A DNA stretch of 64,000 nt from Candidatus Cloacimonadota bacterium (GTDB lineage Bacteria > Cloacimonadota > Cloacimonadia > Cloacimonadales > Cloacimonadaceae): assembly GCA_020532545.1 (NCBI GenBank), contig JAJBAW010000002.1, positions 1 to 64,000 on the forward strand. The letters run 5' to 3'. The stretch's first letter is position 1, and each line of letters starts with the position of its first letter. The notes under the pieces are model-generated. The model saw only the letters and a program-made list of their open reading frames with translations. It did not search any database and was not told the DNA's origin. Below, one piece after another: positions 1,497 through 22,874 of the stretch. Position numbers and translations under genes: made by a program.

Positions 1497-1515
1497 TTTT
1501 GGAGAGGGCACGCAG

Positions 1516-1554
1516 AACCCTCTAAACCTTCTCAACCCTCTCAACTTTCTAAAC
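1516..1554 (+). repeat. Pyrimidine-rich about 10-bp-period tract (copy 1)
   Basis: Degenerate tandem units of the form AACCCTCTAA / ACCTTCTCAA / CCCTCTCAAC / TTTCTAAAC directly upstream of the P5C dehydrogenase start. A similar tract lies upstream of ispG (60857-60897). Confidence 0.6.
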
Positions 1555-1565
1555 AAGGAGACAAG

Positions 1566-3188: not shown

Positions 3189-3191
3189 ATC

Positions 3192-4286
3192 ATGTTATAC
3201 TTACCTACCCGCATATTCATGGGCAGCAGCGCTTTGAGCCAAGCCCGTCAATATATTCGTAACCTGGGCAAGAAAGCCTTAATCGTTACTGGAAAAAGTA
3301 GCGCTCTCAAAAGTGGGGTGATGGCAGAGCTTCTGCCGCTCCTCTCAGAAGAGGGGATTGCGCATAGCGTGTTCGCTCAGGTTCGCGAGAATCCTGATCT
3401 GGGCTCTGTGATGGCAGGCAAAGATCAGCTCCTCTGCACAGGCTGTGATTTCATCATCGCCATCGGTGGCGGATCACCCTTGGACGCAGCGAAGGCGATC
3501 TCTCTGGCTGCGGCCAATATGCTTTCTGAAGACCAGCTCTATGACGAGACTTTAAGGAAGAAAAGCTACAGCATCGTGGCTATTCCCACCACGCATGGCA
3601 CCGGCTCTGAGGTCACTCAGTACAGCGTTTTGACCAATACGAAGACCAAGATCAAGGCTGGGTTTGGCAGCGATCTGATCTTCCCCAGGCTCGCCATCGT
3701 GGATGCCAGATACATGCGCAGCCTGAGCAGCACGGTGAGCCTGAATACCTCTATGGATGCTTTGTCCCACCTTTTGGAAGGGATCTACAGCACGAACAGA
3801 CAGCCGCTGCTCTTTCCGCTGATCGCGCGTGGCATCGGGCTGATCGTCCAGAATCTCGCTCTGTGCCTGAAAGAGCCGGACAATCTGCCGGCGCGGGAAG
3901 CTTTGGCGCAGGCTTCGCTATTTGGAGGAATCGCCATCGCCCATACCAGCACTACATTGCAACACGCCATTGGCTACCCTTTTACCACGGAATTTGGCGT
4001 CCCCCACGGCTTGGCAAATGCCATGTTTTTGAAGCAGATCATGAAGCTTTATACTCCGGCAATCAAGCCCGAATTGAGTTTGCTTTTCGACAAGATAGGT
4101 ATGAGTCAGGATGAATTTATGGCTTGGCTGGACGGCTTTCCCATTGGGCTAAAGGTGGATTTGAACGGCATAGACCTGGAGGCTTGGATGGCCCAGATCC
4201 TGAGTAGCAGAAACATCCAGATCTCGCCCGTGATCCCTACAGCGGACGAACTGCGGGATATCATCAAGAGCGTGCAAAAAGTCTAA
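3192..4286 (+). CDS. Iron-containing alcohol dehydrogenase
   Basis: A 364-residue group III (Fe-type) alcohol dehydrogenase. The nucleotide site GGGSPLDAAKAI is near residues 93-104, followed by THGTGSEVT. Metal ligands are visible as D and H in SMDALSHLLE, and two later His in HAIGYPF and FGVPHGLANA. It reduces or oxidises short alcohols/aldehydes with NAD(P)H; the substrate cannot be assigned. Only 3 bases separate it from P5CDH, so it may dispose of reducing equivalents made by amino-acid oxidation. A second, different Fe-ADH lies at 22990-24132. Confidence 0.88.
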   Translation: MLYLPTRIFMGSSALSQARQYIRNLGKKALIVTGKSSALKSGVMAELLPLLSEEGIAHSVFAQVRENPDLGSVMAGKDQLLCTGCDFIIAIGGGSPLDAAKAISLAAANMLSEDQLYDETLRKKSYSIVAIPTTHGTGSEVTQYSVLTNTKTKIKAGFGSDLIFPRLAIVDARYMRSLSSTVSLNTSMDALSHLLEGIYSTNRQPLLFPLIARGIGLIVQNLALCLKEPDNLPAREALAQASLFGGIAIAHTSTTLQHAIGYPFTTEFGVPHGLANAMFLKQIMKLYTPAIKPELSLLFDKIGMSQDEFMAWLDGFPIGLKVDLNGIDLEAWMAQILSSRNIQISPVIPTADELRDIIKSVQKV

Positions 4287-4297
4287 AGGAATATGCA

Positions 4298-4642
4298 ATG
4301 AAAGTAAAAGAATTTCGCACAGAACGGACCCGGCTCACCAAGCTCACCCTGGACAAAGCTAACCTGAATATCAAGCGCTTTTTTGCCCTGGACAATGCCG
4401 CTTATGATGATGGCGCAATCCCGCTCCAGTACAAGGAAATGATGGGTTTGGTGGCCTCCATGGTCCTGCGTTGTGATGATTGCATTTGCTACCACCTGGA
4501 TCAATGCAAGGCGGCCGGTGTGAATGAGACTGAGCTAAATGAAGCGATGAATATCGCACTGATAGTGGGTGGTTCGATCGTGATCCCGCATCTCAGACGG
4601 GCTATGGCATATTGGGAGGAACTGGCCGGCTTGTCGGAGTAG
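4298..4642 (+). CDS. Carboxymuconolactone decarboxylase/AhpD-like protein
   Basis: A 114-residue protein with the AhpD-core signature CDDCICYHLDQC near residues 67-78, i.e. the CxxC plus downstream His used as a redox-active site. Family members are cytoplasmic peroxidase-linked or gamma-carboxymuconolactone decarboxylases; the CxxC argues for a thiol-redox role. It follows the Fe-ADH by 11 bases with an AAGGA site, as the last gene of the rightward operon, and converges on the HAD gene with only 2 bases between stops. Confidence 0.85.
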   Translation: MKVKEFRTERTRLTKLTLDKANLNIKRFFALDNAAYDDGAIPLQYKEMMGLVASMVLRCDDCICYHLDQCKAAGVNETELNEAMNIALIVGGSIVIPHLRRAMAYWEELAGLSE

Positions 4643-4644
4643 CT

Positions 4645-5505
4645 CTACAGCTCCAGCCACTTCCACACGGCTTCGGCAAAGCCATTGGTATCGCAGGTGG
4701 CCACCGTCTCATACTTGCGGCGTAGTTCCTGGGGGGCGTTGCCTGTCACATAGGCATTGGGGCTGATTTTCAGCATGTCCAGATCGTTATAGTCATTCCC
4801 TATTACCATGATATCATCTGCTGAAGCGCCCAGTTTCCGCATCATAAAGCGCACGGCCCCGCCTTTGTTCACCCCGGGGGCAAAGATCTCGATCCACATC
4901 GTGCAATAGTCTATCGGAGAAGTAGTTCTCACTGCAGATAGGGGATAGAGTCTCTTGTAGATCTCTTTATAGATGTCTTCACGGTCCTGCGCTACCATCG
5001 CCAAAAACTGCGTTGCTTCCATGATCTCTTCCATTTTGCTGAGATCCAGCTCTTCCGCATAGCTTTTGTAATGCTCGATCCGGCGCCAAAAGTCCGCTAA
5101 TCCAGCCTTGGCCCGATAGTGCATGAGATGGGTATCCGGGACCTTGTTGTGCAGCATGTAATCCACCTCAAACTCTTCCAAAGTATCGCAGACTTTCCTC
5201 ACTTCATCGGCGTCCAGATCATGGGAATAGATGAGTTCCTTGCTATGCCAATCCAGGATTCCGGCTCCGGTGGCAAAGATGGCATAATCGAAGGGAGCGT
5301 CGTGCGGAACCACATTCTTGAGGCTGTAAAGTGATCTGCCAGTAGCCAGTATCCGGTAAATGCCGCGCCGGTGAAGCTCATCCAAAGCCTCGTGATTCGG
5401 CTCTGAGATGATGCCCGCAGAGTGCATCAGGGTACCATCCAGATCTGTAAAGCAGATCCTGGTTCGCTTTAGTTCAGGTCTGCCCGACATAAGATCTTCT
5501 CCCAT
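4645..5505 (-). CDS. Cof-type HAD-superfamily phosphatase
   Basis: A 286-residue protein with HAD motif I FTDLDGTLM near residues 18-26, motif II ILATGRSLYSL, and the C-terminal Mg-binding GNDYNDLDML typical of the Cof/YbiV IIB group, which dephosphorylates sugar phosphates and PLP. It overlaps the end of the pyridoxal kinase gene by 37 bases. Start ATG 5505 has a strong GGAGGGAG site; ATG 5490 (behind GGGAGAAG) is an alternative. Next to a vitamin-B6 kinase, a PLP phosphatase role is possible, but this is only inference. Confidence 0.85.
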   Translation of the reverse strand: MGEDLMSGRPELKRTRICFTDLDGTLMHSAGIISEPNHEALDELHRRGIYRILATGRSLYSLKNVVPHDAPFDYAIFATGAGILDWHSKELIYSHDLDADEVRKVCDTLEEFEVDYMLHNKVPDTHLMHYRAKAGLADFWRRIEHYKSYAEELDLSKMEEIMEATQFLAMVAQDREDIYKEIYKRLYPLSAVRTTSPIDYCTMWIEIFAPGVNKGGAVRFMMRKLGASADDIMVIGNDYNDLDMLKISPNAYVTGNAPQELRRKYETVATCDTNGFAEAVWKWLEL

Positions 5506-6290
5506 AAGACTCCCTCCGCGCCTGGCTGACCGGCTATTTGGCTCAGCTCAATGGCATGATATATAGATTGGGTAGCCCGGTTGATCGCCTCGTGTATATC
5601 CATAGCTTGCAGACGGTAAGCCAGCATCAGTGTGCTGAAGATATCTCCGGTTCCGGTATAAAAGCAAGGAATATAGGCACATTTGAAAAGCTCAAGTTCC
5701 GTCCCGTTGGAATAGAGCACTGCATTGTCCCACTTTTCATGCGGAACACTGGTGATTACCAGTTCTTTAGCGCCCAATTTATGAAGTCTGGCACAGAGCT
5801 CCTGCAAGCCACTATCTGTGCACTTCTGTTGACAATGAACCTCGGCCAGGAAACAGGCTTCCGTGTAGTTTGGACTGATGATATCGGCCCTGGCCACCAG
5901 CCTGCGCATGGCATGAATCATGGATTCGCCATAGCAGCTATACAGTTCGCCACTATCCGCCATCACGGGATCGATCAAAACCAGGCAATCTTTCCCGCCA
6001 AAAGTATCGATGGCATCCAGCACAATATCCACTTGCTGGGTATTTGCCAGGAACCCGCTGTAGATGGCCGAAAACTCCATCTTAAGCGCTTCCCAATGGG
6101 CAAGGCTTTCGCGCATAAAATCGTCCGTCCCCTGCATATGATAGTCCGCAAAACAGGTATTGGCCGTAAGCAAAGAGGTGGGCAGGACAGAGAGCGCCAG
6201 CCCAAAACTATAGAGGGTGGGAATGATCGCCATCAGCGAGGTATTGCCAAATCCGGAGAGGTCGTTAATAACCATTACTCTTTTATTCAT
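5469..6290 (-). CDS. pdxY: Pyridoxal/pyridoxamine kinase
   Basis: A 273-residue ribokinase-fold kinase. It opens with VINDLSGFGNTSL and has the ATP/anion-hole motif YTGTGDIFSTLML near residues 211-223, where the Asp is the catalytic base; VLIDPVMADSGELY is also family-typical. It phosphorylates B6 vitamers to supply PLP. It lies on the same strand as, and downstream of, PLP-dependent tryptophanase. The symbol is by similarity; pdxK-type specificity cannot be excluded. The gap to the upstream phosphoesterase gene is 4 bases. Confidence 0.85.
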   Translation of the reverse strand: MNKRVMVINDLSGFGNTSLMAIIPTLYSFGLALSVLPTSLLTANTCFADYHMQGTDDFMRESLAHWEALKMEFSAIYSGFLANTQQVDIVLDAIDTFGGKDCLVLIDPVMADSGELYSCYGESMIHAMRRLVARADIISPNYTEACFLAEVHCQQKCTDSGLQELCARLHKLGAKELVITSVPHEKWDNAVLYSNGTELELFKCAYIPCFYTGTGDIFSTLMLAYRLQAMDIHEAINRATQSIYHAIELSQIAGQPGAEGVLWEKILCRADLN

Positions 6291-6294
6291 GTGC

Positions 6295-7077
6295 TTATTG
6301 CTCCAGGTCTATTTGACACTCGTAGATGGACTTACCCTGCAAATCAAAGGTCTCCAGAAGCAGCTTCGTGTCCGTCTTCTGCATGATGATATAATGATGG
6401 ATCTTCTCAAAATAGAGGCTGTATGGACTGAGCGTGCCCATCTCCCTGAGGGGAGCGCCCCCACCGCCGGTGACAAAATAATGAACGCCATCCAGATACA
6501 GATGTTCAAAATCGTGATCGTGCGCACAAAAGACCGCCAGCACCTTGTGTTTCTTCAAAAGAGCAGGCAGATACAGCTCCAAACCGAGTTCCTGACCGTG
6601 ATGGCCAGAGCTGAGCACGGGATGGTGCAGCAGCAGGATTTTGGGCAGTTCATCAGCAACCAATTGCTCTTTGAACCAGTTATGTTGTACAGAGCCTGGC
6701 AAAAGATCCAGATTACTATCCAGCACGATATACTTCAGAGAGTCATGCTGCACAGTGTAATAACTCTTCTCGGAGACTACTGGAAAGTTGCTTTGAAATA
6801 GCTGTAGGTCTTTTTCATGATTGCCCCGCACGGGATAGAAGATGTCCTTCAGCGGACTGATAACATCTTTGAAGTCATCATATTCGGCCTGGGTTTGACC
6901 TTTTTGATTCTGATCTCCTGTGTGAAAGGCCAGCTCAAGCGGCAGCCCTTTTACCTGTTCGATCAGAACGCGATGCACCTCAGGATGTTTGCGGGTATCG
7001 CCATAAATAAGGATGTCTGCAGTAGCTAGCCAGATGTAGCTGACCAGAACCAAAAGGAGTGTAAGTCTTTTGATCAC
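6295..7077 (-). CDS. Secreted/anchored metallophosphoesterase
   Basis: A 260-residue calcineurin-like phosphoesterase with an N-terminal hydrophobic segment (LTLLLVLVSYIWLATA), then DILIYGDTR, RGNHEKD, LLHHPVL and CAHDHDFEH metal motifs in order. The start is read as GTG 7075-7077, overlapping the upstream UDG stop as GTGA; a longer frame to 7137 would run inside UDG and place 20 residues before the signal sequence. The membrane segment points to periplasmic action. The substrate is unknown. It is part of the tight minus-strand operon. Confidence 0.82.
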   Translation of the reverse strand: MIKRLTLLLVLVSYIWLATADILIYGDTRKHPEVHRVLIEQVKGLPLELAFHTGDQNQKGQTQAEYDDFKDVISPLKDIFYPVRGNHEKDLQLFQSNFPVVSEKSYYTVQHDSLKYIVLDSNLDLLPGSVQHNWFKEQLVADELPKILLLHHPVLSSGHHGQELGLELYLPALLKKHKVLAVFCAHDHDFEHLYLDGVHYFVTGGGGAPLREMGTLSPYSLYFEKIHHYIIMQKTDTKLLLETFDLQGKSIYECQIDLEQ

Positions 7078-7730
7078 AGCAGCTTTTCGTATTCTTTCTG
7101 AAAGGCTTGCAGGTCTTCCCAAGCCGGACGCTTCCAATTGCTATTGCGCAAAAGAGCGGCGGGATGGTAGGTCACAAAGGCAGGAATGCCCATAAATTCA
7201 TGACAGGTCTCCCGGTGCCAGGTGAGGGTATTGGTATTGCCCAAAAGGCTTTGCGCTGCCACCAATCCCATGATCAGCAGGATTTTGGGCTGGATGATCT
7301 GGATTTGCTCCACCAGATAGGGCAGGCAGGCCAGGCGTTCTTCCGTGCTGGGATTGCGGTTTTCGGGAGGGCGGCATTTCACGATATTAGCGATGTAAAT
7401 GTCTTCCCGCGAGATCTTTATGGCTTCCAGCATCTTGTCCAAAAGCTTGCCGCCAGCGCCCACAAAGGGTTTGCCGATCTTGTTTTCGCTATCCCCGGGG
7501 GCTTCACCGATGAGCATGGCGGTGCTGTTTTCATTGCCCTCGCCATAGACCAGATTGAGACGCCCTGCGGCCAGTGGGCACTTATCGCAATCTGCATACT
7601 TCCGGGCCAGTGATTCCAGCAGTGCTTTTTTATCCAGAGGAGTCAGAACTTTGGCGGGTTCGTGGTAAAGCTGCCGGATGCCGCTTTGTTTTAATAGTTC
7701 AAGGTATTGGATCAGGGCACGTCTTGACAT
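7074..7730 (-). CDS. Type-4 (Fe-S) uracil-DNA glycosylase
   Basis: A 218-residue family-4 UDG. The [4Fe-4S] ligands are the CDKC pair near residue 44 and the later Cys of VKCRPPENRNP and RLACLPYL. The active-site motif GEAPGDSENKIGKPFVG (near 73-89) and the C-terminal YHPAALLRN are complete. It removes uracil from deaminated DNA. Its ATG shares one base with the upstream stop (TAATG) and its TGA overlaps the next gene, so it is translationally coupled on both sides. Confidence 0.92.
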   Translation of the reverse strand: MSRRALIQYLELLKQSGIRQLYHEPAKVLTPLDKKALLESLARKYADCDKCPLAAGRLNLVYGEGNENSTAMLIGEAPGDSENKIGKPFVGAGGKLLDKMLEAIKISREDIYIANIVKCRPPENRNPSTEERLACLPYLVEQIQIIQPKILLIMGLVAAQSLLGNTNTLTWHRETCHEFMGIPAFVTYHPAALLRNSNWKRPAWEDLQAFQKEYEKLL

Positions 7731-8170
7731 TAGCTTTCGTCATCGTCTTCGTCAAGATCATCGTTTTCGATATCGATATCGTCGTCATCGTCTTCGTCCA
7801 GATCGGCAAAGGGATCCTTCACCACTTCTAGATTATCATAGTCTGTAAGGTCTGTGGCTTCAATCTCTTTCACGAAGCGAGCGGAGTCGTCAATGGTCTC
7901 TTCGCCAAATTCGAGCACGTCGTCGTCATCTTCATAGAGCGCGCGTTCGGCGGCCAAAATGCGTTCGGCCTCTTCCAATTCGCTGATATAATCCGGCACT
8001 TCGTTATCCGCAACGTGTTCCATCGCCATAACGGTCAGCTTTTTGGCAAACTTCTGTTTTACAAAGGTCGGGAATTGGTTGATCCGATGTGCTTCCAGCT
8101 TGGAAAGCAAGCAATACAAATAGTTGATATTGCCTTTTTCAAGGAAGTTTTCAATCTTTTCATCAATCAT
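7730..8170 (-). CDS. Omega-like (RpoZ-like) protein with hyperacidic tail
   Basis: A 146-residue protein from ATG 8170 (CAGGAG site; overlaps the gmk stop as ATGA). Residues 1-60 resemble RNA-polymerase omega: a GNINYLYCLLSK helix, a basic stretch, then KKLTVMAMEHVADNEV, like the omega ltviAleEi segment. The gmk-omega order is also classic. Residues 70-146 are extremely acidic, ending in runs of Asp/Glu (DEDDDDDIDIENDD). Omega usually ends soon after the conserved part, so the tail is odd. If not omega it is an unknown acidic protein; the call is moderate. Confidence 0.5.
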   Translation of the reverse strand: MIDEKIENFLEKGNINYLYCLLSKLEAHRINQFPTFVKQKFAKKLTVMAMEHVADNEVPDYISELEEAERILAAERALYEDDDDVLEFGEETIDDSARFVKEIEATDLTDYDNLEVVKDPFADLDEDDDDDIDIENDDLDEDDDES

Positions 8171-8796
8171 GTTTTTTTCTCCTGTTGCAGGAATCCCTGC
8201 ATGGGGTTGTGGTATCTGCATACCCGGTTTTCTTCGGCCTTGATAATGGCCATCACGTCACTTACGGCATGGTCCAGATCATCGTTTATCACCAGATAAT
8301 CATAATCTGGAATACAGTCCAGTTCTTTTTCTGCGGTGTTCAGCCTGCGCTGAATAGCCTCTTCACTATCCGTCCCTCGTTTGATCAGCCGATCCTTCAG
8401 CACATCCATCGAAGGCGGGATAATGAATATCTTCACCAGCGGCACTTTTGTGGCGCTGATCTGAGCGGCTCCCTGCACATCGATATCCATGATCACATGG
8501 TGCCCGAGGCTCAGCCGGGACTGAGTAAAGCTGATCGAGGTTCCATACCAGCTATGGCCAAAGACTTTCGCGTGTTCCAGAAAATCTCCCTGGGCAATAC
8601 GGGTTTCAAATTCAGCTTCGTTCACGAAGTGATAATGAATCCCGTTTTGCTCAGTTCCTCGCGGGGCCCGCGTGGTATAGCTCACAGAATAATCGATGCT
8701 ATCCGCCTTAGCCAGGATTTCATTCAAAATCGTGGTTTTACCTCCTCCCGAAGGGGCAGATAGGATGATCAGAAAGCTGGAGCTTCTTTTTATCAA
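8167..8796 (-). CDS. gmk: Guanylate kinase
   Basis: A 209-residue GMP kinase with P-loop SAPSGGGKTTIL near residues 13-24, the GMP-binding SVSYTTRAPRGTEQNGIHYHFV segment (about 37-58) and VIMDIDVQGAAQI. It makes GDP from GMP. No in-frame ATG lies upstream: the frame reads back to the gcvH stop 21 bases away, so TTG at 8794-8796 is the likely start. Its TGA overlaps the omega-like ATG. The gmk/omega pairing is widespread in bacteria. Confidence 0.93.
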   Translation of the reverse strand: MIKRSSSFLIILSAPSGGGKTTILNEILAKADSIDYSVSYTTRAPRGTEQNGIHYHFVNEAEFETRIAQGDFLEHAKVFGHSWYGTSISFTQSRLSLGHHVIMDIDVQGAAQISATKVPLVKIFIIPPSMDVLKDRLIKRGTDSEEAIQRRLNTAEKELDCIPDYDYLVINDDLDHAVSDVMAIIKAEENRVCRYHNPMQGFLQQEKKT

Positions 8797-8817
8797 TGTC
8801 CGGCCATTAGCCGCAAA

Positions 8818-9198
8818 TTATTCAGGTATGGCTTTCTTGTATTCTACTGCGCTTAAAAGATTGTCAAGCTCATCTTTGTCGCTCATCCGAATCTTGATCA
8901 GCCACCCATCTTCATAGGGGGATTTATTCATCAAATCCGGGCTATCTTCCAAATCTGTATTGCGCTCGACTATCTTGCCGGAAAGTGGGGAAATCATGTC
9001 TTCCACAGCTTTCACTGCTTCGATGGAGCCACAAGGCTCGCCAGCATCTACTTTCATGCCTACTTCAGGCAGCTCTACAAACACAATATCGCCCAGCTCG
9101 TGCTGTGCAAAATCAGTGATTCCGACGGTGGCGGTATCGCCTTCGACTCTCACCCATTCATGGCTTTCGGTGTAGTATAAATCTTCAATAATGTTCAT
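8818..9198 (-). CDS. gcvH: Glycine cleavage system H protein
   Basis: A 126-residue lipoyl carrier, full length, opening with YYTESHEWV. The lipoylated Lys is in GSIEAVKAVEDMISP near residues 58-72. It shuttles the aminomethyl group between GcvP, GcvT and the lipoamide dehydrogenase; none of those is nearby, so H may be used elsewhere or act as a general lipoyl carrier. The start follows CAGGAGAAAACC. It lies 21 bases ahead of gmk and 96 bases after tnaA. Confidence 0.95.
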   Translation of the reverse strand: MNIIEDLYYTESHEWVRVEGDTATVGITDFAQHELGDIVFVELPEVGMKVDAGEPCGSIEAVKAVEDMISPLSGKIVERNTDLEDSPDLMNKSPYEDGWLIKIRMSDKDELDNLLSAVEYKKAIPE

Positions 9199-9294
9199 GG
9201 TTTTCTCCTGATCTTAGTTTTGTCATCATAAGCCAAAACTGCAAGTTGCCACATTGTGTCAAGTTCAAAAGTGACAACCGCATGTCTTTTATGC

Positions 9295-10671
9295 TTAAAG
9301 CGTTTCAAATGTAGCGGTGAAGTGCCGCATAATAGGCGCTTCGTACTTTATTTTGAGTCCGCGGTAAGTCTCACGTTTGGCCCAGATTTGCTCTAATCCC
9401 CAGACCACTATGTCCATGTGATTATTGGTATATACACGACGGGGGATAGCCAGCCTGAGCAGTTCCATCTTGGGAATGCGTTCCACGCGGGTATCGGGAT
9501 CCCGGTCTGCGAGTACAGTGCCGATTTCCACTCCGCGCACTCCGGCTTCCACATACAGTGCCACACCCAAAACCTGGGCGGGATACTGCGTCTGCGGGAT
9601 CTGCGGGAAGAAGCTTTTGGCGTCCACATAGATCGCGTGTCCACCGGCTGGTTTCACGATTGGGATGCCGAGTTTGGTGATTTCGTCTCCCAGATACTTC
9701 ACCTGCGAGATGCGGGCCTGCAGATAATCAAATTCCGTGCTTTCCAGGAGGCCGGTGGCCAGGGTTTCCATATCCCGTCCGCTCATGCCACCATAGGTGA
9801 TGTAGCCTTCAAACATGATGCTGAAAGTGCAGCACTGGCGATAGATTTCTTCGCTTCTGAGGCCGATGAATCCGCCCATATTGATGATGCCGTCTTTTTT
9901 CGCACTCATGGTCATACCGTCAGCATGGCTAAACATCTCTTTCACAATCTCTTTGATGGTCTTATTCTGATAGCCATCTTCACGAGTTTTGATAAAATAG
10001 GCATTTTCGGCAAAGCGCGCAGAATCAAAGATCAAAGGAATCTTATGGTGTTTGCAGACCTTGGCCACGGCCTTGATATTGGCCATGGAAACCGGCTGTC
10101 CGCCTCCGGTATTGCAGGTGACAGTCAGAACCATAAAGGGAATCTTCTCGGCACCGTGCGCTTTGATGCAAGCTTCCAGCTTGTCGATATCGACATTACC
10201 CTTGAAAGGCAGTTCCGAATTCATGTCCGAAGCTGCGTCCACAGTGCAATCCACCGCAGTGGCATGACGAAATTCGATGTGCCCTTTGGTGGTATCAAAA
10301 TGTGCATTGCCGGGGACGATGTCGTGGGCTTTCAACATCACCGAAAACAGGACATTTTCTGCAGCTCTGCCCTGATGAGTGGGCATCACAAATTCGAAGC
10401 CCAAAAGCTCCTGGATCGTCTTTTTCATGCGCAAAAAGCTGCGGCTTCCGGCATAACTCTCGTCGCCCATCATGAGGGCAGACCACTGTCTATCGCTCAT
10501 GGCGTTGGTTCCGGAATCTGTGATCAGGTCGATATACACGTCTTCCGCATCGAGGCTGAAGAGGTTGTATTGGGCCGCTTTGATCTTGGCTTCGCGCTGC
10601 TCTTTGTTCAGGATTTTCAGGGGCTCCACCATTTTGATGCGCCAGGGTTCTGCATAAGGCATCTTGTTCAT
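9295..10671 (-). CDS. tnaA: Tryptophanase
   Basis: A 458-residue PLP beta-eliminating lyase. The PLP lysine is in MSAKKDGIINMGG (second K, residue 259). Tryptophanase is favoured over tyrosine phenol-lyase by VEIGTVLADRDPDTR and by His in the C-terminal RHFTATFE (phenol-lyases have RFFTA). Reaction: tryptophan to indole, pyruvate and ammonia. The start follows TGGAGAAAAC. No TnaC-like leader peptide was recognised upstream. It is likely a catabolic gene for amino-acid fermentation, with a pyridoxal kinase downstream on the same strand. Confidence 0.9.
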   Translation of the reverse strand: MNKMPYAEPWRIKMVEPLKILNKEQREAKIKAAQYNLFSLDAEDVYIDLITDSGTNAMSDRQWSALMMGDESYAGSRSFLRMKKTIQELLGFEFVMPTHQGRAAENVLFSVMLKAHDIVPGNAHFDTTKGHIEFRHATAVDCTVDAASDMNSELPFKGNVDIDKLEACIKAHGAEKIPFMVLTVTCNTGGGQPVSMANIKAVAKVCKHHKIPLIFDSARFAENAYFIKTREDGYQNKTIKEIVKEMFSHADGMTMSAKKDGIINMGGFIGLRSEEIYRQCCTFSIMFEGYITYGGMSGRDMETLATGLLESTEFDYLQARISQVKYLGDEITKLGIPIVKPAGGHAIYVDAKSFFPQIPQTQYPAQVLGVALYVEAGVRGVEIGTVLADRDPDTRVERIPKMELLRLAIPRRVYTNNHMDIVVWGLEQIWAKRETYRGLKIKYEAPIMRHFTATFETL

Positions 10672-10852
10672 GTTTTCTCCATATATCTTATTTTTATCGT
10701 TTCACAAAGTATTTTGAGTTTAAAAACAAAATCCAGCACAGGCTATTTGTGTCAAATCTTTTCTGCTTCTGGCACCTGCGGCGCGCCTGGAGACGATTCC
10801 ATTCTTGCAAGCCTGGGTTTGCATTTGGGCAAGAAGCAAAGCCACGATAACT

Positions 10853-10873
10853 GGATTGGATGCGTCTCGCGTC
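10853..10873 (+). repeat. Dispersed 21-bp motif, copy 1
   Basis: GGATTGGATGCGTCTCGCGT + C. The inverted copy at 12512-12532 is identical and a diverged copy lies at 59708-59728. All three are intergenic; this one lies 8 bases before the tRNA fragment. Confidence 0.7.
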
Positions 10874-10881
10874 GACTGAGA

Positions 10882-10931
10882 ACTGCTTCGTAATCAGTAG
10901 GTCGGGGGTTCGACTCCCCCATTTAGCTCCA
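10882..10931 (+). pseudogene. 3' half of tRNA-Thr(CGU)
   Basis: This 50-base stretch reads as the anticodon arm (ACTGC-TTCGTAA-TCAGT, anticodon CGT), variable loop, perfect T arm (GGGGG-TTCGACT-CCCCC) and 3' acceptor strand ATTTAGC-T-CCA with encoded CCA. The matching 5' acceptor GCTAAAT and the D arm are absent; unrelated sequence holding the 21-bp motif precedes it. A lone tRNA 3' half is what site-specific integration at a tRNA gene leaves behind. No intact copy or integrase is in the window. Confidence 0.75.
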
Positions 10932-11054
10932 GCGTTACAGCGGTTTGCCCAAAAGTCCGTAGGACATATATAGGACAAACCGCTGATTGTTTTAAGCAGA
11001 ATATATCCCCCGAAGAGGAAAACAATATATCTGCTTTGTGTTTTATATGATCTA
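10932..11054. other. Inverted repeat plus direct-repeat copy 1
   Basis: CAGCGGTTTG (near 10938) and CAAACCGCTG (near 10976) pair as an inverted repeat. From 10953 to 11017 the sequence (AAGTCCGTAGGACA, AAACCGCTGAT, TTTTAAGCA, CCCCCGAAGAGG) is repeated at 12254-12312 beyond the Sel1 gene. No coding sequence was seen. Confidence 0.6.
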
Positions 11055-11912
11055 TCAATTATGCTCGGTAAACCACTTCCGGGCTCTGGCCTGTAGCTGT
11101 TCCTGCTGTTGTTTGCTTAATTGTTTGGCTGCAATCTCACGGTTATCTTTGGCCATATCAATTCCATTTGCAGAAGCAATTAAAAACCAGAAATACGCTT
11201 CACTGTAATCTAAGATAACGCCTTCTCCAGTACCATAACATAATCCTAAATTAGTCTGCGCAAATGCAATTCCCTGCTCTGCCGCCAGGCGAAACCATCT
11301 GACCGCTTCCTTTTTGTCCTGAACAATGCCCTCGCCATTGTAGTAGCACAGACCCAAATTGTATTGCGCATAAGCATAGCCCTGCTCTGCCGCCAGACGA
11401 TACCATCTGACCGCTTCCTTTTTGTCCTGAACAATGCCATCGCCATTGTTGTAGCAATTACCCAAATTGAATTGCGCATCAGTGAGTCCCTGCTCTGCCG
11501 CCAGGCGATACCATCTGACCGCTTCCTTTTTGTCCTGAACAATGCCCTCGCCATTGTTGTAGCGCACACCCAAATTGAATTGCGCTTCAGCAAGGCCCTG
11601 CTCTGCTGCCAGGCGATACCATCTGACCGCTTCCTTTTTGTTCTGAACAATGCCCTCGCCATTGTTGTAGCGCACACCCAAATTGAATTGTGCTTCAGCA
11701 AGGCCCTGCTCTGCTGCCAGGCGATACCATCTGACCGCTTCTTTTGTGTCCTGAACAATGCCCTCGCCATTGGCGTAGCACAGACCCAAATAGAATTGTG
11801 CTTCAGCATCGCCTTTTTTCGCCGCTTGCAGCAGAGATTCGCTATAAACTACTTTACTGCAGAGCGTTCCCATCATTAAAAGGATGATCAAAATAAGCCC
11901 TAAGTTACGCAT
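11055..11912 (-). CDS. Sel1-repeat protein, secreted
   Basis: A 285-residue protein with a signal peptide (LGLILIILLMMGTLCSKVVYS), then six 36-residue Sel1/TPR-like repeats of the form AEAQFNLGxxYNNGEGIVQDKKEAVRWYRLAAEQG, and a last variant repeat ending in EAYFWFLIASANG. The central DNA repeats are 108 bp and nearly identical (for example the GACCGCTTC positions recur at 11301, 11409, 11517, 11625 and 11733), so copy number is probably unstable. Sel1 repeats bind partner proteins; the partner is unknown. It is flanked by direct repeats and lies next to the tRNA scar. Confidence 0.85.
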   Translation of the reverse strand: MRNLGLILIILLMMGTLCSKVVYSESLLQAAKKGDAEAQFYLGLCYANGEGIVQDTKEAVRWYRLAAEQGLAEAQFNLGVRYNNGEGIVQNKKEAVRWYRLAAEQGLAEAQFNLGVRYNNGEGIVQDKKEAVRWYRLAAEQGLTDAQFNLGNCYNNGDGIVQDKKEAVRWYRLAAEQGYAYAQYNLGLCYYNGEGIVQDKKEAVRWFRLAAEQGIAFAQTNLGLCYGTGEGVILDYSEAYFWFLIASANGIDMAKDNREIAAKQLSKQQQEQLQARARKWFTEHN

Positions 11913-12253
11913 ATAAAACCTCCAAGGTGTTTTTTTCTAAAGATTAGCTGGTCAGGATTTATGTCAAGTTGAAAGTTGCAAATATCATAAAAATACCATG
12001 GTGTATCAGGCATCACTTTTGTGATGATGGGAACAATCTGTGGGAGAGATGGCGATCCATAATGCAAGTTTCGTTGAACAAAATAGATATCTCCGTATGC
12101 TGATCAATATTCGGAATCAAGTTAACGGTTTTAGCCGTCCCATGTCTCTTTATCCTTGATCGAGCCAATGGCGTTTTCCTTGTCTTGCAGTTAATCACAG
12201 CAATGGATTAGATTTAATAAATAGCAAGCTTTTTAGTCACTATCATATTATAG

Positions 12254-12312
12254 AAAGTCTGTAGGACAAACCGCTGATATTTTTAAGCAAAAAATACCCC
12301 TCCGAAGAGGGG
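12254..12312 (+). repeat. Direct-repeat copy 2 with terminator-like hairpin
   Basis: Matches 10953-11017: AAGTCTGTAGGACA, AAACCGCTGAT, TTTTAAGCA, then CCCCTCCGAAGAGGGG at its end, a stable hairpin with a CGAA loop followed by TTTAAATT. The two copies flank the Sel1 gene in the same orientation about 1.3 kb apart. Confidence 0.65.
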
Positions 12313-12511
12313 TTTAAATTACAGATTTTTTCTTAAACTAACCGATACTATGTTCTTTAAGAAGGCTTAGTTTTTAATAATTTTCTGTACCATACTTACT
12401 AATGGCTGAGCCTGTAATTCTGCATATTCGCAGCTGGAACAGCTCAGTCTCTTAAACTCCAGTAAAGCTTATAGGATATGCTTCCTTTTGTAAAGGCCTG
12501 TGGTCTTACTG

Positions 12512-12532
12512 GACGCGAGACGCATCCAATCC
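12512..12532 (-). repeat. Dispersed 21-bp motif, copy 2 (inverted)
   Basis: Reverse complement of 10853-10873 with no mismatch across the 21 bases. Confidence 0.7.
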
Positions 12533-12566
12533 TGTAGCGCTGTCACTCACATTTCCAGACTTACAG

Positions 12567-12661
12567 AGTCCTTCCTGCATAGGATGACGTGTAGATGTCG
12601 TGTAGATAAGAGTATTTTTTCCTGCTATCTACACATCATCTACACGACAACGAACGGGGAT
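12567..12661 (+). repeat. Dispersed hairpin repeat A, copy 1
   Basis: About 95 bp opening with AGTCCTTCCTGCATAG. CGTGTAGATG...GTGTAGATAA pairs with CTATCTACACATCATCTACACG to form a long stem around a T-rich loop. A homologous copy lies inverted at 44433-44525. Confidence 0.7.
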
Positions 12662-12850
12662 GGAAGCAGTCTGGCAGCAGCAGGTCTAAGCTAAAAGTCT
12701 GTCAGCTTGGGGCATATTAGCTTGAAATAAGGAGATGGTGGTACTGGCTGATTCTTCAGACAGGTACCAAACATGAGCTGACCAGAGCTTTCGAGTTTAC
12801 TCGTGTCGGATATCTTGCTAAGTCTAAGGCCAAAGCGTTCTGCGGCAGTG

Positions 12851-14455
12851 CTATGTGGATATCCCCGGAACCGCGCTGGCATTGCCATCCCTGATCGCGT
12901 TATACATCGGACTCATGATCTCCACCCCCGCTTCGGCGAAATTATCAAGGATGTTTTTATGCAATTCCGTGTAAGTCAAAATTTGGGTATTCGGCCTATC
13001 CGTATAGGCACAAAGTTGGTATTCCACACAGTGATCCATGAGCCTCAAAATATTGACATAGGGCGACTTCTGTGTGTTGACACCATCGCTTTTCAGCGCT
13101 GCTGAGATCAGGAGTTCATAGACCTTTTGCCAAGGCACGTCATAACGGACGCTGAGCTCGGTATGCAGGACCAGGTTGCCTTCGCGGGCATAGGAAGAGT
13201 AGTCCATGATATTGCCCGAGAGTACGATAGCATTGGGGATGGTAACCTCTTCATTTTTTATCGTTTTTATGCGCACCACCAGCAATGAGGTCTCCAGCAG
13301 GGTTCCTTTTTTGTCGCCAATGCGCACAAAATCCCCTATCCTGTAGGCCCGCATATAGGTCAGGATGATCCCCGCAATGATATTGGCGATGGCCGAAGAA
13401 GAGCCCAGGGATACGATCACACCCACAAAAATCGAGATACCTTGAAAAGCCGGTGAACTGGAGCCGGGCAGATAGGGGAAGATCACCACCACCGTGAAGA
13501 ACATGATCAGGAATTTCACGATTTGATAGGTGGAATCAGCCCATTCCGGATAGAAATTCGAAAAGCGCAGATTGCCTTGTTCGATCTCATCAAAGATATA
13601 GCGTAAGAACTTGAGTAAGTAGCGGGTTACGATTACCACCACGATGATGAAAAAGAGGCTGGGCAGATAGTTCAAAACCGCTTGACCCACTCCCATCACT
13701 GGATTCATGATATAAGCCTGCAAGCGCTGGCCGATTTCGTGAGTGGCGGGAATCACCAAAAGTACGAAATACAGCGTAAAATAGAATAATAAAGCCAGCA
13801 AGATAAAGCGCACCAAGGCGATAATGGTTCTGGCCGCCCTGCAGAATTGATCGGTAGAAAGTAACTTGATGCCTCTGAAGGTAAAGCCTTCTGGATTTGC
13901 CGTTTTCACAGCTATGATCAGGCTTTGCAGATATTTGATCATCTTGCTGAGCATCCGGAAGATAAAGATGCTGATGCCCAGAATCAGCAATACAAATAAG
14001 ACAGTTTTTACGATCAGGATGATGCTCTGCCGCATACTCAGATGGATAAAAAGCGGGATAAACTCATCTGCGATCAGGTCATAATAGCCTTCCGCGATCT
14101 CGGGCAAAGGTTTTTGCAAAGCCAGCGAATCCGCTATACCCGCGGTGAGAATGGTCTTGTCTCCATAACGGACATCGTATTGACCATCCTGACCATAGAC
14201 GTGCAAACTGTCCCGATAAAGGCGCTTGTTTTCAGAAAGCTTTTCCAGCCTTTTGCTGATGATGTCGGAACGTTCCAGGGCCGAGAAACTGCCCAGGCCG
14301 CTGTAAACATAAAAGATAACCTTATCTTTATATACCACAGGAGATTTCAGTATGAGGCTGTCCTGCTCTACATGCTCGAAAATATTCCTGGCTGCCAAAG
14401 AGGCTGAGAGGACAAGCAAGAGGCTGAACAACAGCAAAAGTCTGAATCCTTTCAT
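12851..14455 (-). CDS. Mechanosensitive ion channel, MscS family
   Basis: A 534-residue inner-membrane protein: signal sequence (LLLLFSLLLVLSASLA), an extra periplasmic domain of about 100 residues, several membrane helices (around 135-165, 210-240, 260-290, 310-330), then the MscS pore/beta domain (GSSSAIANIIAGIILTYMRAYRIGDFVRIGDKKGTLLE, near 350-390, and VTIPNAIVLSGNIMDYS). It opens under membrane tension as a safety valve. It is larger than E. coli MscS (286). Its ATG overlaps the upstream DPD-like gene stop as ATGA. Confidence 0.9.
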   Translation of the reverse strand: MKGFRLLLLFSLLLVLSASLAARNIFEHVEQDSLILKSPVVYKDKVIFYVYSGLGSFSALERSDIISKRLEKLSENKRLYRDSLHVYGQDGQYDVRYGDKTILTAGIADSLALQKPLPEIAEGYYDLIADEFIPLFIHLSMRQSIILIVKTVLFVLLILGISIFIFRMLSKMIKYLQSLIIAVKTANPEGFTFRGIKLLSTDQFCRAARTIIALVRFILLALLFYFTLYFVLLVIPATHEIGQRLQAYIMNPVMGVGQAVLNYLPSLFFIIVVVIVTRYLLKFLRYIFDEIEQGNLRFSNFYPEWADSTYQIVKFLIMFFTVVVIFPYLPGSSSPAFQGISIFVGVIVSLGSSSAIANIIAGIILTYMRAYRIGDFVRIGDKKGTLLETSLLVVRIKTIKNEEVTIPNAIVLSGNIMDYSSYAREGNLVLHTELSVRYDVPWQKVYELLISAALKSDGVNTQKSPYVNILRLMDHCVEYQLCAYTDRPNTQILTYTELHKNILDNFAEAGVEIMSPMYNAIRDGNASAVPGIST

Positions 14456-16902
14456 CTTAATTCCTGTTTATTATCTATCATTTCCAGGGCGTTTGTCCAG
14501 CAAAGTTGCACGCACAGGCTGCAGCCCATGCACTTCTCTTCATCGATGTTGGGGTAGCCTTCCTCGTCCAGCACGATGGCCAGATAGGGGCAACGGGTGC
14601 AATTGCCGCAGTTTACACAGAGATCCTTGATTAGAGATGAATGCTTGTATTTGGGAGGGATATCCATGAAATCTGTGACAGGATGGGGCTGAGTAATGCC
14701 AATCAATTCTGCTACGCTGCCGATTTTGCGCGCTTGCAAGAGGTGGCTGAATCCGCTTTCTAGCTGATCAATGATGCCGTAGCCATAGCGTTCTACCACA
14801 GTGCAAAACTGTACGTTACCAGCGCCCAGAGCCAGGAAATTGGCGGCGTCATGGTGATTCATCGCTCCGCCATTTCCAGAGATAAATACGCCCATGCTGC
14901 CGGCCCTGGCCAGGCTGAGATAGCTGATGGGCAGTACGCCCTCTCCACTCATGCCGGCAATGATGCCTTGGTCCCAAGGGCCGTCTGAGGCTCTGAAACC
15001 CAGGGCGGGGAAGGTATTGGCCAGGGTGACGCCGGCTTTCTTGCCGGGATAGCGGTCAAAGACTGCTTTCACCGCAGCGATAATGGGATAGATCGCGGTC
15101 ACGGCTCCGGTGAGCTTGAAGAGTTTGGGGATCTCGGGATCGGAAATCTGCATCACCCAATCGATGATCTTGGCAGTGAGGACGGGGTCTTGAGCCACAA
15201 TGTCGCCATGGGTGCCATCTCCGCCCTGAGGGCAGGAAAGCGAGTATTCGATACCCATGGCTCCGGCTGCTTCCAGCTTTTTGGTGTTGGATTGCCAGCC
15301 GGCTTTGTCCTCAGCGTCATTTCCGCTTACGGGGCCACCGGTGGAAGCCATAGTCAGGCGATCCGGGAACTCCTTGATCAGACGGGCTACTTCCTCGCAA
15401 ACCCGGTCTATGGGGTGCTCGGAGACGTTGTCACAATTTGCGAAAGTCCTGTTGCCCTCACCCCAGACAAACATGTATTCGCTGGGGATGTGAATAGGCA
15501 GGTTATCGAATGAGGTCTTCATGATTCCGCCTGCCCAGCCGGCTTCGTAAGCCAGTTTCATCTGTTCATAACCATCGGATGGAGGGGCTGCGGAAAGGAT
15601 GAAGGGAGAGCGCATTTTGTGGCCAAAGAAGTCACAAGTGATCGGGACTGGCAGGCGTTTCCAGCCTGGAACCGCGCAGATGCTTTTGGTGGGTTGGGAG
15701 GGCTCGGCAAATTCCTTTGACCTCAGTGCAGCATCCACTTTGAAAGCCATGTTTTTGCCGGCTGCAACCGCTTGTACCACAGTGCTGGGGCCATTGATCA
15801 TGTCACCACAGCTATAGATGCCATCGCCTTCGATTTTGAAAGCAGGACTGCAACCCACGGATATTACCACGAGATCGAAAGGACGGTATTGCTCCGTGGA
15901 GCCTTCTTCGTCCTTGATTTGGGAAGGGTGAAACTCTGTATTGGCAGGCAGATAGACGGGACGAGTTCTGATGCCCACGGTCCTCTCGCCTTCGTTCACG
16001 ATCTCGACAATGCGGGTGCGATGGCTGAAAAGTATTTTGTGTTCCAGCAGGATGCCCTTTTCACGCAAGGTAAGCGGCAGTTCGCCAAAGGTTTCCAGGG
16101 TAAACATTTCCACGTGCGCAGCGCCGGATCTGGCAATCGTCAAAGCTTGATCTACTGCGATCGCTCCACCCACCAGTGCTACTCGCTTGCCTTTAAAGAG
16201 GAAGCAACTGGAGTTTTTGAGGATTTCCAGGCCGTAAATGGCTTTGTCATCCCCGGGGATATTCAGGTGGATGGGCTGATTGAGTCCGCCAGCCACGATC
16301 ACGGCTTTATAGCCTTCTTTCAGCAGGGCTTTGGGGTCCAGGACCTGCTGCTGGTGATGCACGATGTGAAAGCTTTCGCTAACCCACATGAGATCAGACA
16401 TCAGCATACCGCGGTCCAGCCGATCCTCCGGGATCAAGGCAGCTTGGCCGCCCAGGCTATCGGGATCGAAGATTTCGGGGTTGTAAGACAATTGACGCAG
16501 GGTCACCGCCGCACCGATGGCAGCGGGTCCACCACCCACAATGGCGATTTTATCCAGAGTGGCATCGGGCAGATCAAACTCTGGGGACATCCCCAATTCG
16601 CGGGCCTTCTTGATGATGGTGGCCTGCACAGAGGGAATCTGGATGGGAGCATCGAACTTCTCTTTCAGACAGGCCGCTACGCAATGATGATCCGGACAGA
16701 CATCACCACAGATGCCGCCCAAAGGATTGGAGGCCAGGATGATACCTGCCGCGCGCTTAAAATCCGAGGGTTGGCCACCAGCGGCAGCCATCATAAAATC
16801 CGCCGGCGAACAATCGCAGGGACAGGCAGTCTTACAGGGTTTGGTGGCGCAGTACTCGCAGCGCCTGATCTCGCTCATCAGTTGGGCGTCGGTCAAATAC
16901 AT
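14452..16902 (-). CDS. Dihydropyrimidine dehydrogenase-like PreT-PreA fusion oxidoreductase
   Basis: An 816-residue fusion. Residues 1-100 carry Fe-S cysteines (CEYCATKPCKTAC at 15-27; CGDVCPDHHCVAAC). FAD/NAD sites follow (AIVGGGPAAIGAAVTL near 123; VALVGGAIAVDQAL near 245). From about 420 to 720 is an FMN TIM-barrel with the active-site loop YSLSCPQGGDGTHG, where Cys is the expected acid. The C-terminus has two ferredoxin clusters (CVNCGNCTRC, CMGCSLCVQLC). The order matches dihydropyrimidine dehydrogenase, which reduces uracil/thymine, but it is shorter than the mammalian enzyme, so another substrate is possible. Confidence 0.85.
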   Translation of the reverse strand: MYLTDAQLMSEIRRCEYCATKPCKTACPCDCSPADFMMAAAGGQPSDFKRAAGIILASNPLGGICGDVCPDHHCVAACLKEKFDAPIQIPSVQATIIKKARELGMSPEFDLPDATLDKIAIVGGGPAAIGAAVTLRQLSYNPEIFDPDSLGGQAALIPEDRLDRGMLMSDLMWVSESFHIVHHQQQVLDPKALLKEGYKAVIVAGGLNQPIHLNIPGDDKAIYGLEILKNSSCFLFKGKRVALVGGAIAVDQALTIARSGAAHVEMFTLETFGELPLTLREKGILLEHKILFSHRTRIVEIVNEGERTVGIRTRPVYLPANTEFHPSQIKDEEGSTEQYRPFDLVVISVGCSPAFKIEGDGIYSCGDMINGPSTVVQAVAAGKNMAFKVDAALRSKEFAEPSQPTKSICAVPGWKRLPVPITCDFFGHKMRSPFILSAAPPSDGYEQMKLAYEAGWAGGIMKTSFDNLPIHIPSEYMFVWGEGNRTFANCDNVSEHPIDRVCEEVARLIKEFPDRLTMASTGGPVSGNDAEDKAGWQSNTKKLEAAGAMGIEYSLSCPQGGDGTHGDIVAQDPVLTAKIIDWVMQISDPEIPKLFKLTGAVTAIYPIIAAVKAVFDRYPGKKAGVTLANTFPALGFRASDGPWDQGIIAGMSGEGVLPISYLSLARAGSMGVFISGNGGAMNHHDAANFLALGAGNVQFCTVVERYGYGIIDQLESGFSHLLQARKIGSVAELIGITQPHPVTDFMDIPPKYKHSSLIKDLCVNCGNCTRCPYLAIVLDEEGYPNIDEEKCMGCSLCVQLCWTNALEMIDNKQELR

Positions 16903-16963
16903 ATCTAGCTCCTTCTCGTCCCTCGGGCATTTTAAGACAAGTGTGGTAATGATCTGTGTCTGG

Positions 16964-18037
16964 TTACTTTATGGTTCCCAGTCTCTGCTGTTGATAGCTC
17001 TTATCCTGGATGTGTTTCCACCACTGGCGGTTGTCCAGATACCAGGCTACGGTCTTGCGGATGCCGGTATCAAAAGTCTCTTTGGGCTTCCAACCCAGTT
17101 CGCGCTCGATCTTGCTGGCATCGATGGCATAACGCAGGTCGTGGCCGGGGCGATCGGTAACATAGGTGATCAGTTCTTTATAGCTTTTGAGCTTTGCGGA
17201 GGGCTCCATTTCATCGAGAATCTCGCAGATAATGCCCACGATATCGATGTTCTTGATCTCGTTGTGCCCACCGATGTTATAGGTTTCACCGGTTCTACCG
17301 CGTTTGATGATGGTATTGATGGCTTCGCAGTGGTCATCCACATAGAGCCAATCCCGCACGTTCAGGCCTTTGCCATATACGGGGAGAGGCTTGTGCTCCA
17401 GGCAGTTGAGGATCATCAGAGGGATCAGCTTTTCGGGGAACTGAAAGCCCCCGTAGTTATTGGAGCAATTTGAGATGGTCACAGGCAGGCCAAAGGTGCG
17501 CTGCCAGGCTCTCAGGAGATGGTCACTCGCCGCTTTGGAGGCGGAGTAGGGAGAGGAGGGATCGTATGGAGTTTCCTCTGTAAACAGGCCTGTATCGCCC
17601 AGCGAGCCATAGACTTCATCGGTGGAGACATGATGAAAGCGGAAGGCTTGCTTTTCTTGTTCAGACAGGGTGCGGTACAAGTCCATTGCTGCAGCAAGCA
17701 GGGTGGCTGTGCCCATCACGTTCGTCTGCACAAATTGCAGAGGGCCGTCGATGGAGCGATCCACATGGGATTCGGCTGCGAAATTGACGACAGTATCGGG
17801 CTGAAAGTCCTTGAAGATGCGGTTTACTTGGGGCACATCGCAGATATCGGCATGCTCAAAGAAGTAGCGGTCACGGCCATATTTGGCATCGATCGCCTCT
17901 AAAGACTCCAGGTTTCCGGCATAGGTTAAAGCGTCGAGATTCAGCACTTTGCCCTTGAATGTAGGATCAGCAAAAAGCTTATTAATGTAGTTTGCGCCGA
18001 TGAATCCGGCTCCTCCAGTAACTAATATCTTGTTCAT
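16964..18037 (-). CDS. rfbB: dTDP-glucose 4,6-dehydratase
   Basis: A 357-residue extended short-chain dehydrogenase. NAD site [14 protein letters not shown] is at the N-terminus, then [10 protein letters not shown] (catalytic Asp/Glu region), [15 protein letters not shown] (catalytic Tyr and Lys) and [15 protein letters not shown]. It converts dTDP-glucose to the 4-keto-6-deoxy sugar for surface polysaccharide. The other rhamnose-pathway genes are not here. It follows parB by 3 bases, an unusual neighbour for a sugar gene. The start follows TGAGGTGAATT. Confidence 0.93.
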
Positions 18038-18040
18038 AAT

Positions 18041-18889
18041 TCACCTCAGTTTATCTAATATTATTTTAATCTGTTCGAGCTCCTCAGGGCTTTTGTATTC
18101 CAGGGTGATCTTGCCTTTGCCCTTGTGTTCACGCACGCTTACTTTGCCGGGGAAGATGGAGCCGAGCTGCTGCTCAAAACTCCGGGTAAGAGGGTTCTTC
18201 CTGGGCTCTTCTTCGCCTGTTTGAAGGCTGTCCACATAGGTCTTGGCTTTTTCTTCGGCCTGGCGCACGCTGAATTTGTATTTGATGATGTGGCGCGCAA
18301 AGAGGATCTGGTATTCCGGCTGCACCATTAGCACGGCTCTGGCGTGTCCGGCGGTAAGTTCTTCCGAGGCCACCAGTTCGATCACATCATCCGGCAGTTT
18401 GAGCAGGCGCAGACTGTTTGTGATGGTGGCGCGGTCTTTGGCCATGGTACTTGCGATCTGAGCATGGGTGAGGCCGAAATCCTGTGCCAAAGCCTGATAG
18501 GCCAGAGCTTCTTCTATGGGCCCGAGATCCTCACGCTGGATGTTCTCCACGATCGCCAGTTGTAGCTGTTCCTTTTTGGAGACAGAGCGGATCACCACCG
18601 GCACCGCGGTCAGTCCGGCGAGTTTAGCCGCCTCCAGTCTGCGTTCTCCGGCGATGAGTTCATAGTCTGTGCCCTCGCTTTTGGTAACGATGAGGGGCTG
18701 GATGATGCCATTTTCCAGGATGGATTCCGCCAGCTCTTTGAGGCGGTCCGGATCAAACTTCAGGCGCGGTTGATAGCGGTTTGGCTTGATCCTGCCTATG
18801 GGCAGAGTGCCGATTCCGGCTTTGATATTCTCGTCTTTATCCCCGTCCGGAATCAGGGCAGAAAGTCCACGGCCAAGATGTTCGTTCAT
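18041..18889 (-). CDS. parB: Chromosome-partitioning protein ParB/Spo0J
   Basis: A 282-residue protein with the N-terminal CTP/DNA-clamp domain (NRYQPRLKFDPDRLKEL near 36-52, IIQPLIV, LIAGERRLEAAKLAG near 76-90), the central HTH (LTHAQIASTMAKDRATITNSLRLL, about 140-163) and a C-terminal dimer region. ParB loads on parS and helps segregate the origin region. The order rsmG-parA-parB is the conserved near-origin arrangement. I found no consensus parS (TGTTTCACGTGAAACA) in the window. Confidence 0.95.
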   Translation of the reverse strand: MNEHLGRGLSALIPDGDKDENIKAGIGTLPIGRIKPNRYQPRLKFDPDRLKELAESILENGIIQPLIVTKSEGTDYELIAGERRLEAAKLAGLTAVPVVIRSVSKKEQLQLAIVENIQREDLGPIEEALAYQALAQDFGLTHAQIASTMAKDRATITNSLRLLKLPDDVIELVASEELTAGHARAVLMVQPEYQILFARHIIKYKFSVRQAEEKAKTYVDSLQTGEEEPRKNPLTRSFEQQLGSIFPGKVSVREHKGKGKITLEYKSPEELEQIKIILDKLR

Positions 18890-18901
18890 CTCATATCCTC
18901 T

Positions 18902-19666
18902 TTATTTATAACGCTCAATCACTTCATTGGCCAGATTCAAATAGCTCATCGCGCCGGGAGAGCGGATGTCGTACAAAAAGATAGGTTTACCAAAGCTGGG
19001 CGCTTCGGTGAGCTTGATATTGCGGGGGATCACACTGCGAAAGACCTTTTCTTTGAAATAGCGATGCACCTCTTTGGCCACTTGCATGGAGAGATTCACG
19101 CGTTTGTCAAACATCGTGAGCAGGATGCCCAGGATATTGAGCCCGGGATTCAGGTTTTTTTGGATGAGGCGGATGGTGGTAAGCAATTGGCTTACTCCTT
19201 CCAGGGCATAGTATTCGCACTGGATAGGTACGATCACATCGGTGGAAGCGGTCATCGCATTCACAGTCAAAAGCCCCAAGGAAGGCGGGCAATCTATCAA
19301 GATATAATCCCAGTCGTTTTGGATGCTCTGCAAGGCTTCCTTGAGCTTATGCTCGCGCGCAAACTCATGCACGAGTTCGATTTCCGCACCGGTGAGATCT
19401 ATATTTCCCGGCACACAATACAGGTTCTGCGTATCGGTGGGCAGGATGCAATCCGTGAGCGGAACCCTGCCGATCAGAGCGTCGTAGATCTGCAGTTTTA
19501 TCTTGGATTTATCGATCCCCACTCCTGTGGTAGCATTGCCCTGAGGGTCAAAATCGATGAGCAGGGTGCGCTTTTCCAGGATCGCCAAAGCCGCCGCCAG
19601 GTTCACCGTGGTCGTAGTCTTACCCACTCCACCTTTTTGGTTTACAATCGTTATTATTTTTGCCAT
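18902..19666 (-). CDS. parA: Chromosome-partitioning ATPase ParA/Soj
   Basis: A 254-residue Walker-type ParA. The deviant P-loop NQKGGVGKTTTTVNLA is at residues 8-23, LIDFDPQGNATTGVG near 36-50 and DYILIDCPPSLG near 118-129. It binds DNA non-specifically with ATP and moves the ParB-parS complex. It is 12 bases ahead of parB and 25 bases after rsmG, within one minus-strand operon. Confidence 0.95.
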   Translation of the reverse strand: MAKIITIVNQKGGVGKTTTTVNLAAALAILEKRTLLIDFDPQGNATTGVGIDKSKIKLQIYDALIGRVPLTDCILPTDTQNLYCVPGNIDLTGAEIELVHEFAREHKLKEALQSIQNDWDYILIDCPPSLGLLTVNAMTASTDVIVPIQCEYYALEGVSQLLTTIRLIQKNLNPGLNILGILLTMFDKRVNLSMQVAKEVHRYFKEKVFRSVIPRNIKLTEAPSFGKPIFLYDIRSPGAMSYLNLANEVIERYK

Positions 19667-19691
19667 CTTATATCTTTTAAAGTCCTTCTTT

Positions 19692-22792: not shown

Positions 22793-22874
22793 TTAATCCT
22801 CATAGGGTAAAGTTAAAATAAGGGGTATTTATTGTCAATTGATTATTAGGCTTTTGGCTTTTTCGGGCCAGAAT

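Follow-up and report, generated by a model that had tools for sequence, protein, structure and literature searches.

A lone tRNA-Thr(CGU) 3' half at the left end of a segment inserted into a REP pair of a Cloacimonadota genome

Results

The window, by which we mean the whole stretch of 64,000 nucleotides that was analysed, belongs to contig C83 of the source genome (G000), a draft in 154 contigs; the closest relative compared is hereafter G007. Ordinary genes fill positions 542-10772, which are collinear with G007:C118 at 89%, and collinearity resumes from 22990 onward. In between, synteny and an outgroup junction identify an inversion of about 10 kb relative to G007 (12858-22844): in G007, G009 and G004 the MscS gene lies next to the gene at 22990 and converges with it, and since the outgroups G004 and G009 share G007's junction, the inversion is derived in G000. 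At the left breakpoint of this inversion lies an insert, and the REP pair that hosts it stands upstream of a gene for a beta-eliminating lyase (tryptophanase-like). In the G007 sequence inspected at the insert's place there is no REP pair to be seen, a comparison that is blurred by the inversion. Elsewhere on C83 a segmental duplication runs past the window's end, with 60904-68197 and 68460-73520 both matching G007:C118:58241-65601.

Positions 10890-10931 of the forward strand are identical, from the anticodon loop to the CCA, to the 3' half of the intact tRNA-Thr(CGU) at G000:C59:34333-34408, the one intact copy in this genome, on a contig other than that of the lone half. A previous interpretation made from the letters of the window (hereafter the sequence-only reading) had claimed such a lone 3' half and proposed a search for the matching intact gene; both are borne out. 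It had given the fragment as 10853-10931, of which the tRNA part stands from about 10887 or 10890, given that the TTC at 10887-10889 is common to the tRNA and a REP repeat; the rest, 10851-10889, is REP. Likewise, the arms it described as intact are tRNA-identical from 10890 up to the CCA, and the 5' strand of the anticodon arm is repeat DNA that resembles the tRNA by chance, for which reason C is found at 10886 where the tRNA has A and the arm is not fully intact as tRNA.

Within the window no tRNA was called by ARAGORN, nor by Rfam at the gathering threshold. A whole-genome search with the Rfam tRNA model (RF00005) gave the lone half 25.7 bits, under the cut-off of 29 bits; a second sub-threshold match in G000, of 21.7 bits, lies at C59:87553-87636. 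A survey of tRNA-Thr(CGU) copies in 49 family genomes, 46 of which had a match at E 1e-8, showed a lone half spanning tRNA positions 26-77 at this site only. The idea that the fragment is a dispersed repeat, occurring at many loci, is therefore rejected for the tRNA part and true for its left neighbour, the REP. The same survey showed the G002 tRNA-Thr(CGU) (L018, G002:C57:28360-28621) as two overlapping partial copies flanking a run of N, which is probably a scaffold gap or alternatively an unresolved insertion.

The place of the missing tRNA 5' half is occupied by a REP repeat at 10851-10889 (CTGGATTGG...GAGAACTGCTTC). That the 5' half has been replaced was correctly noticed before; the replacement, taken at the time for unrelated sequence, is the left half of a high-copy REP pair on the forward strand, composed of the hairpin unit GGATTGGATGCGTCTCGCGTC and the spacer GACTGAGAACTGCTTC, cut by the insert, as determined by matches in its own genome, unit alignment and hairpin folding. 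The unit folds as a hairpin and is arranged in inverted pairs with the spacer GACTGAGAACTGCTTCCTTTTGTAAAGGCC... between the units. Of the 68 matches listed in G000 for query 10780-11010, 65 are REP matches (the three others being the window itself, the intact tRNA and flank B2, described below), a copy number that is a lower bound with 40 of the 84 candidates scored. Among 12 genus genomes, only G000 and G007 gave matches to GGATTGGATGCGTCTCGCGTC. High copy number, inverted hairpin units and RAYT association are all found: a Y1 transposase (RAYT-like) gene at G000:C57:1214-1402 lies amid REP copies at 158, 328, 554, 1560 and 1775, and it is on the structure together with this gene among the copies on C57 that the label REP pair is given. 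G007 carries the repeat with no PF01797 match. Copies of GGATTGGATGCGTCTCGCGTC are also found in tandem arrays of various periods, including the region G000:C57:1-1860. Others adjoin the tmRNA gene of G000, just downstream (L007, G000:C86:53122-53670), and on G007:C110 (L088) REP copies lie beside a matching stretch that resembles a tmRNA end.

The REP pair of the window is interrupted. Its left half ends with ...GAACTGCTTC at 10889 and its right half starts with TGCTTCCTTTTG at 12479, 1.59 kb apart; the latter (12479-12535, forward strand) comprises the spacer CTTTTGTAAAGGCC and the inverted hairpin unit, and several independent repeat matches begin at exactly 12479 (query position 567). Uninterrupted REP pairs were found at seven distinct places among the loci examined, five in G007 and two in G000. 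Since the pair resumes at 12479 and is uninterrupted elsewhere, 10890-12478 is an insert, of 1,589 bp, with a GC content of 0.43 versus 0.50 for the window and without a counterpart here in G007. It is bounded by a direct repeat of six bases, TGCTTC, at 10884-10889 and, by junction comparison, at 12479-12484, both on the forward strand; in a simulation that placed random window pieces into the REP pair, the chance of an overlap of six or more was approximately 0.0012.

From left to right the insert contains the tRNA half, flank B1 (10932-11040, forward strand), a Sel1-repeat protein gene (11055-11912, reverse strand) and flank B2 (12251-12310, forward strand). B1, recognised by its match to the native flank of G007, consists of the tRNA 3' trailer with a terminator-like hairpin (arms 10938-10950 and 10973-10985), and B2 is a partial direct repeat of B1 (80% identity; 88% over 48 positions). 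The Sel1 protein, the insert's cargo, has 285 residues and six repeats (Pfam Sel1, E 9.6e-70), and matches its closest G007 protein at 62% over residues 19-166, about half its length. Apart from itself and the similarity of B2 to B1, 11913-12478 has no match in G000 or G007, and in these two genomes the insert occurs once. Sel1 is the only open reading frame that stands out: the insert contains no transposase and no integrase, nor are its ends joined by terminal inverted repeats. The three integrase matches of G000 are on C8, C27 and C117; two look like counterparts of the two of G007, and the third, extra gene (C117:17579-17905) is cut by a contig end.

The intact tRNA-Thr(CGU) sits between the same genes in G000 and G007, and is single in the latter, where its native 3' flank is of the B type. 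B1 and this flank share 57 of 60 positions, within an alignment of 166 bases at 89%, as compared with 37 of 60 for the native flank of G000 (flank A). Within the two genomes flank B is found only at the window copies and the G007 native locus, and flank A has no other copy. As a control, 40 G000 tRNAs were compared and 13 were dropped (eight without a partner, two without a usable flank, two mispaired Met and one Leu cut by a contig end), which left 27 pairs including Thr(CGU). Among the 26 others, 23 have at least 50 identical positions in the 60-base flank, an identity that is inflated where control flanks run into the next clustered tRNA; those below are Gly-CCC (9), Ser-CGA (26) and Phe (37). 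A flank change at a native tRNA locus hence has a base rate of about one in nine. Since the B1 match falls within the range of orthologous flanks, the window flank looks orthologous to the native flank of G007, and flank A is the odd one. An origin of flank B by recent import from a G007-like strain was considered and is not needed, the divergence being that of ordinary orthologous tRNA flanks. The remainder of the insert gave two short words by eye at the G007 tRNA locus, which is not significant (p 0.64).

REP gives way to tRNA within the anticodon loop (TTC|GTAA), from where identity continues to the CCA. A perfect 7-3-7 inverted repeat is formed by the anticodon stem-loop, and the switch is at its centre. 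Left of the switch, REP AACTGCTTC and tRNA AACTGATTC match at eight of nine positions (AACTGnTTC); 9-mers that match the tRNA as well as the REP does are found at 3 of 63,991 positions on that strand of the window, a figure that shares the TTC with the TGCTTC estimate, so that the two are not independent. By eye, the right arm of the target REP shows little resemblance to the tRNA. No other insertion of the same kind was found, which leaves one instance. A scan of a viral collection returned no contig with the tRNA 3' end searched for, and a scan of genome contigs returned two matches only, both native loci (G007's contig and HGW-Cloacimonetes-1).

Discussion

A lone tRNA 3' half is the expected form of the distal end of an island, and the sequence-only reading had accordingly placed the body of an element to its left. 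This fails, because the DNA to the left is syntenic with G007 (542-10772, at 89%); the inserted DNA is on the right, at 10890-12478. It is therefore more likely that the half arrived as one end of the inserted segment than that it is an island's displaced distal end. The accompanying proposal of an integrase-made, att-like scar stands in part: an attachment-type reading fits best and the break is at a usual crossover subsite, while an integrase is lacking and the half is likelier a carried end.

The anatomy of the locus is explained; the mechanism of insertion is probable and unproved. We tentatively prefer tRNA-type site-specific recombination, which may well have delivered the segment to a secondary site in the REP that resembles the tRNA. 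The segment would have lain in, or been excised from, the tRNA-Thr(CGU) locus, with an inferred crossover in the anticodon loop, and would have integrated anew at a secondary site, where AACTGCTTC is similar to the AACTGATTC of the tRNA. A 1.59-kb segment with the tRNA 3' half and trailer at its left end would thus have been inserted into a REP pair, giving as product REP-left, the tRNA 3' half and the segment through to its end, then REP-right, and a TGCTTC at each end. The G000 native gene, with flank A, could then be the emptied site, and flank B of G007 the trace of an occupied one. That A is an emptied site is not established, because A and B are equally similar to the G008 flank (score 13 each).

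The crossover position agrees with known systems. The anticodon loop, along with the T loop and the T/acceptor junction, is a position expected for such crossovers; it is one usual subsite of tRNA-targeting integrases, for which such attP sites are common, and Islander reports an anticodon-centred attP for 2,083 islands and a 3' tDNA fragment for 3,760 (PMC4383910). The insert shares with the tyrosine-integrase tRNA islands described there a tRNA 3' fragment starting at the anticodon loop and a direct repeat at the ends; it differs in that it has no integrase, does not have an intact tRNA at one end and a displaced half at the other, and is hosted by a REP instead of a tRNA gene. The use of secondary sites by islands is documented for SGI1 (PMC2297512), where the site likewise resembles the primary one in part only; for SGI1 this was shown by transfer experiments, whereas here it is deduced from sequence, with no recombinase gene.

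Since the insert contains no integrase, microhomology-mediated insertion stays a serious rival to site-specific recombination, and it is quite possible, if less probable, that no site-specific enzyme took part. A broken or copied piece of chromosome (tRNA 3' half, trailer and Sel1) would have been joined into a break in the REP through repair synthesis and a short stretch of homology (AACTG-TTC), and such breaks may be favoured by REP hairpins. The missing recombinase, the inversion breakpoint in the same intergenic region and the microhomology at the left joint all suit such a course, and a changed native flank is not exceptional given the differences in 3 of the 26 other usable pairs. It nevertheless requires coincidence three times over: for a break precisely within the anticodon loop, for a six-base repeat at the two ends and for the flank change at the native locus.

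The presence of TGCTTC at both ends could also be read as a 6-bp target duplication left by a transposon-like insertion into the REP pair, and REPs are known targets of insertion sequences, as documented for ISPpu9 (PMC8450116). As in ISPpu9 the REP is the target, but the insert here has neither transposase nor IS ends, no terminal inverted repeats are seen, it is single, and the similarity of tRNA and target at the joint would be due to chance, which makes this origin improbable. Very improbable is the view that the half is the displaced attR-type (distal) end of a genomic island that once extended to the left: for all that the lone half has the expected form, collinearity with G007 reaches 10772, unless a past island was cleanly lost, and the interrupted REP pair shows that DNA was inserted to the right. 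A misassembly that falsely joined the tRNA 3' half or the REP, both of them repeated sequences in a draft of 154 contigs, is likewise very improbable, as the REP/tRNA joint shares only TTC exactly (eight of nine positions if one mismatch is allowed), which is not long enough for a k-mer join, and on both C83 and C59 the two arms share synteny with a single G007 contig, an arrangement that a swap of partners would break.

Returning to site-specific recombination, because the insert lacks its own integrase and a paired intact tRNA on the same stretch we do not file it as an integrated island, though it may work like one; the lone half and the intact tRNA are on C83 and C59 and do not bound one element, in a draft where linkage on a larger scale is possible. 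The whole locus resembles a worn scar left by an ordinary mobile-DNA event. It illustrates that an insert can carry a lone tRNA half as one of its ends, so that the element gets sought on the wrong side, and that an interrupted repeat reveals the true side of the inserted DNA. If the site-specific reading is true, REP spacers that resemble the anticodon stem are secondary landing sites. A more far-reaching version, which we consider speculative and rather unlikely, is that a small cassette without integrase (tRNA-Thr 3' half, trailer and Sel1) was moved in trans between the anticodon-loop site of the tRNA and a REP spacer mimicking the anticodon stem, and that in Cloacimonadota REP arrays would thereby offer tRNA-targeting mobile DNA a reserve of landing sites.

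REP families are present in several phyla (PMC3733652). The literature matches listed for REP name neither Cloacimonetes nor Cloacimonadota, and we make no claim of an undescribed repeat. Like the REP/REPIN/BIME systems with RAYT described there (PMC3733652), the repeat consists of inverted pairs of short palindromic hairpins at high copy, with a RAYT-like gene flanked by copies in G000; in contrast to these systems, the REP pair is here a target only and the insert is not a REP. Another interspersed hairpin repeat, of about 100 bases, is found in the window at approximately 12552-12672 and at 44433-44532, and has dozens of matches in G000 and G007.
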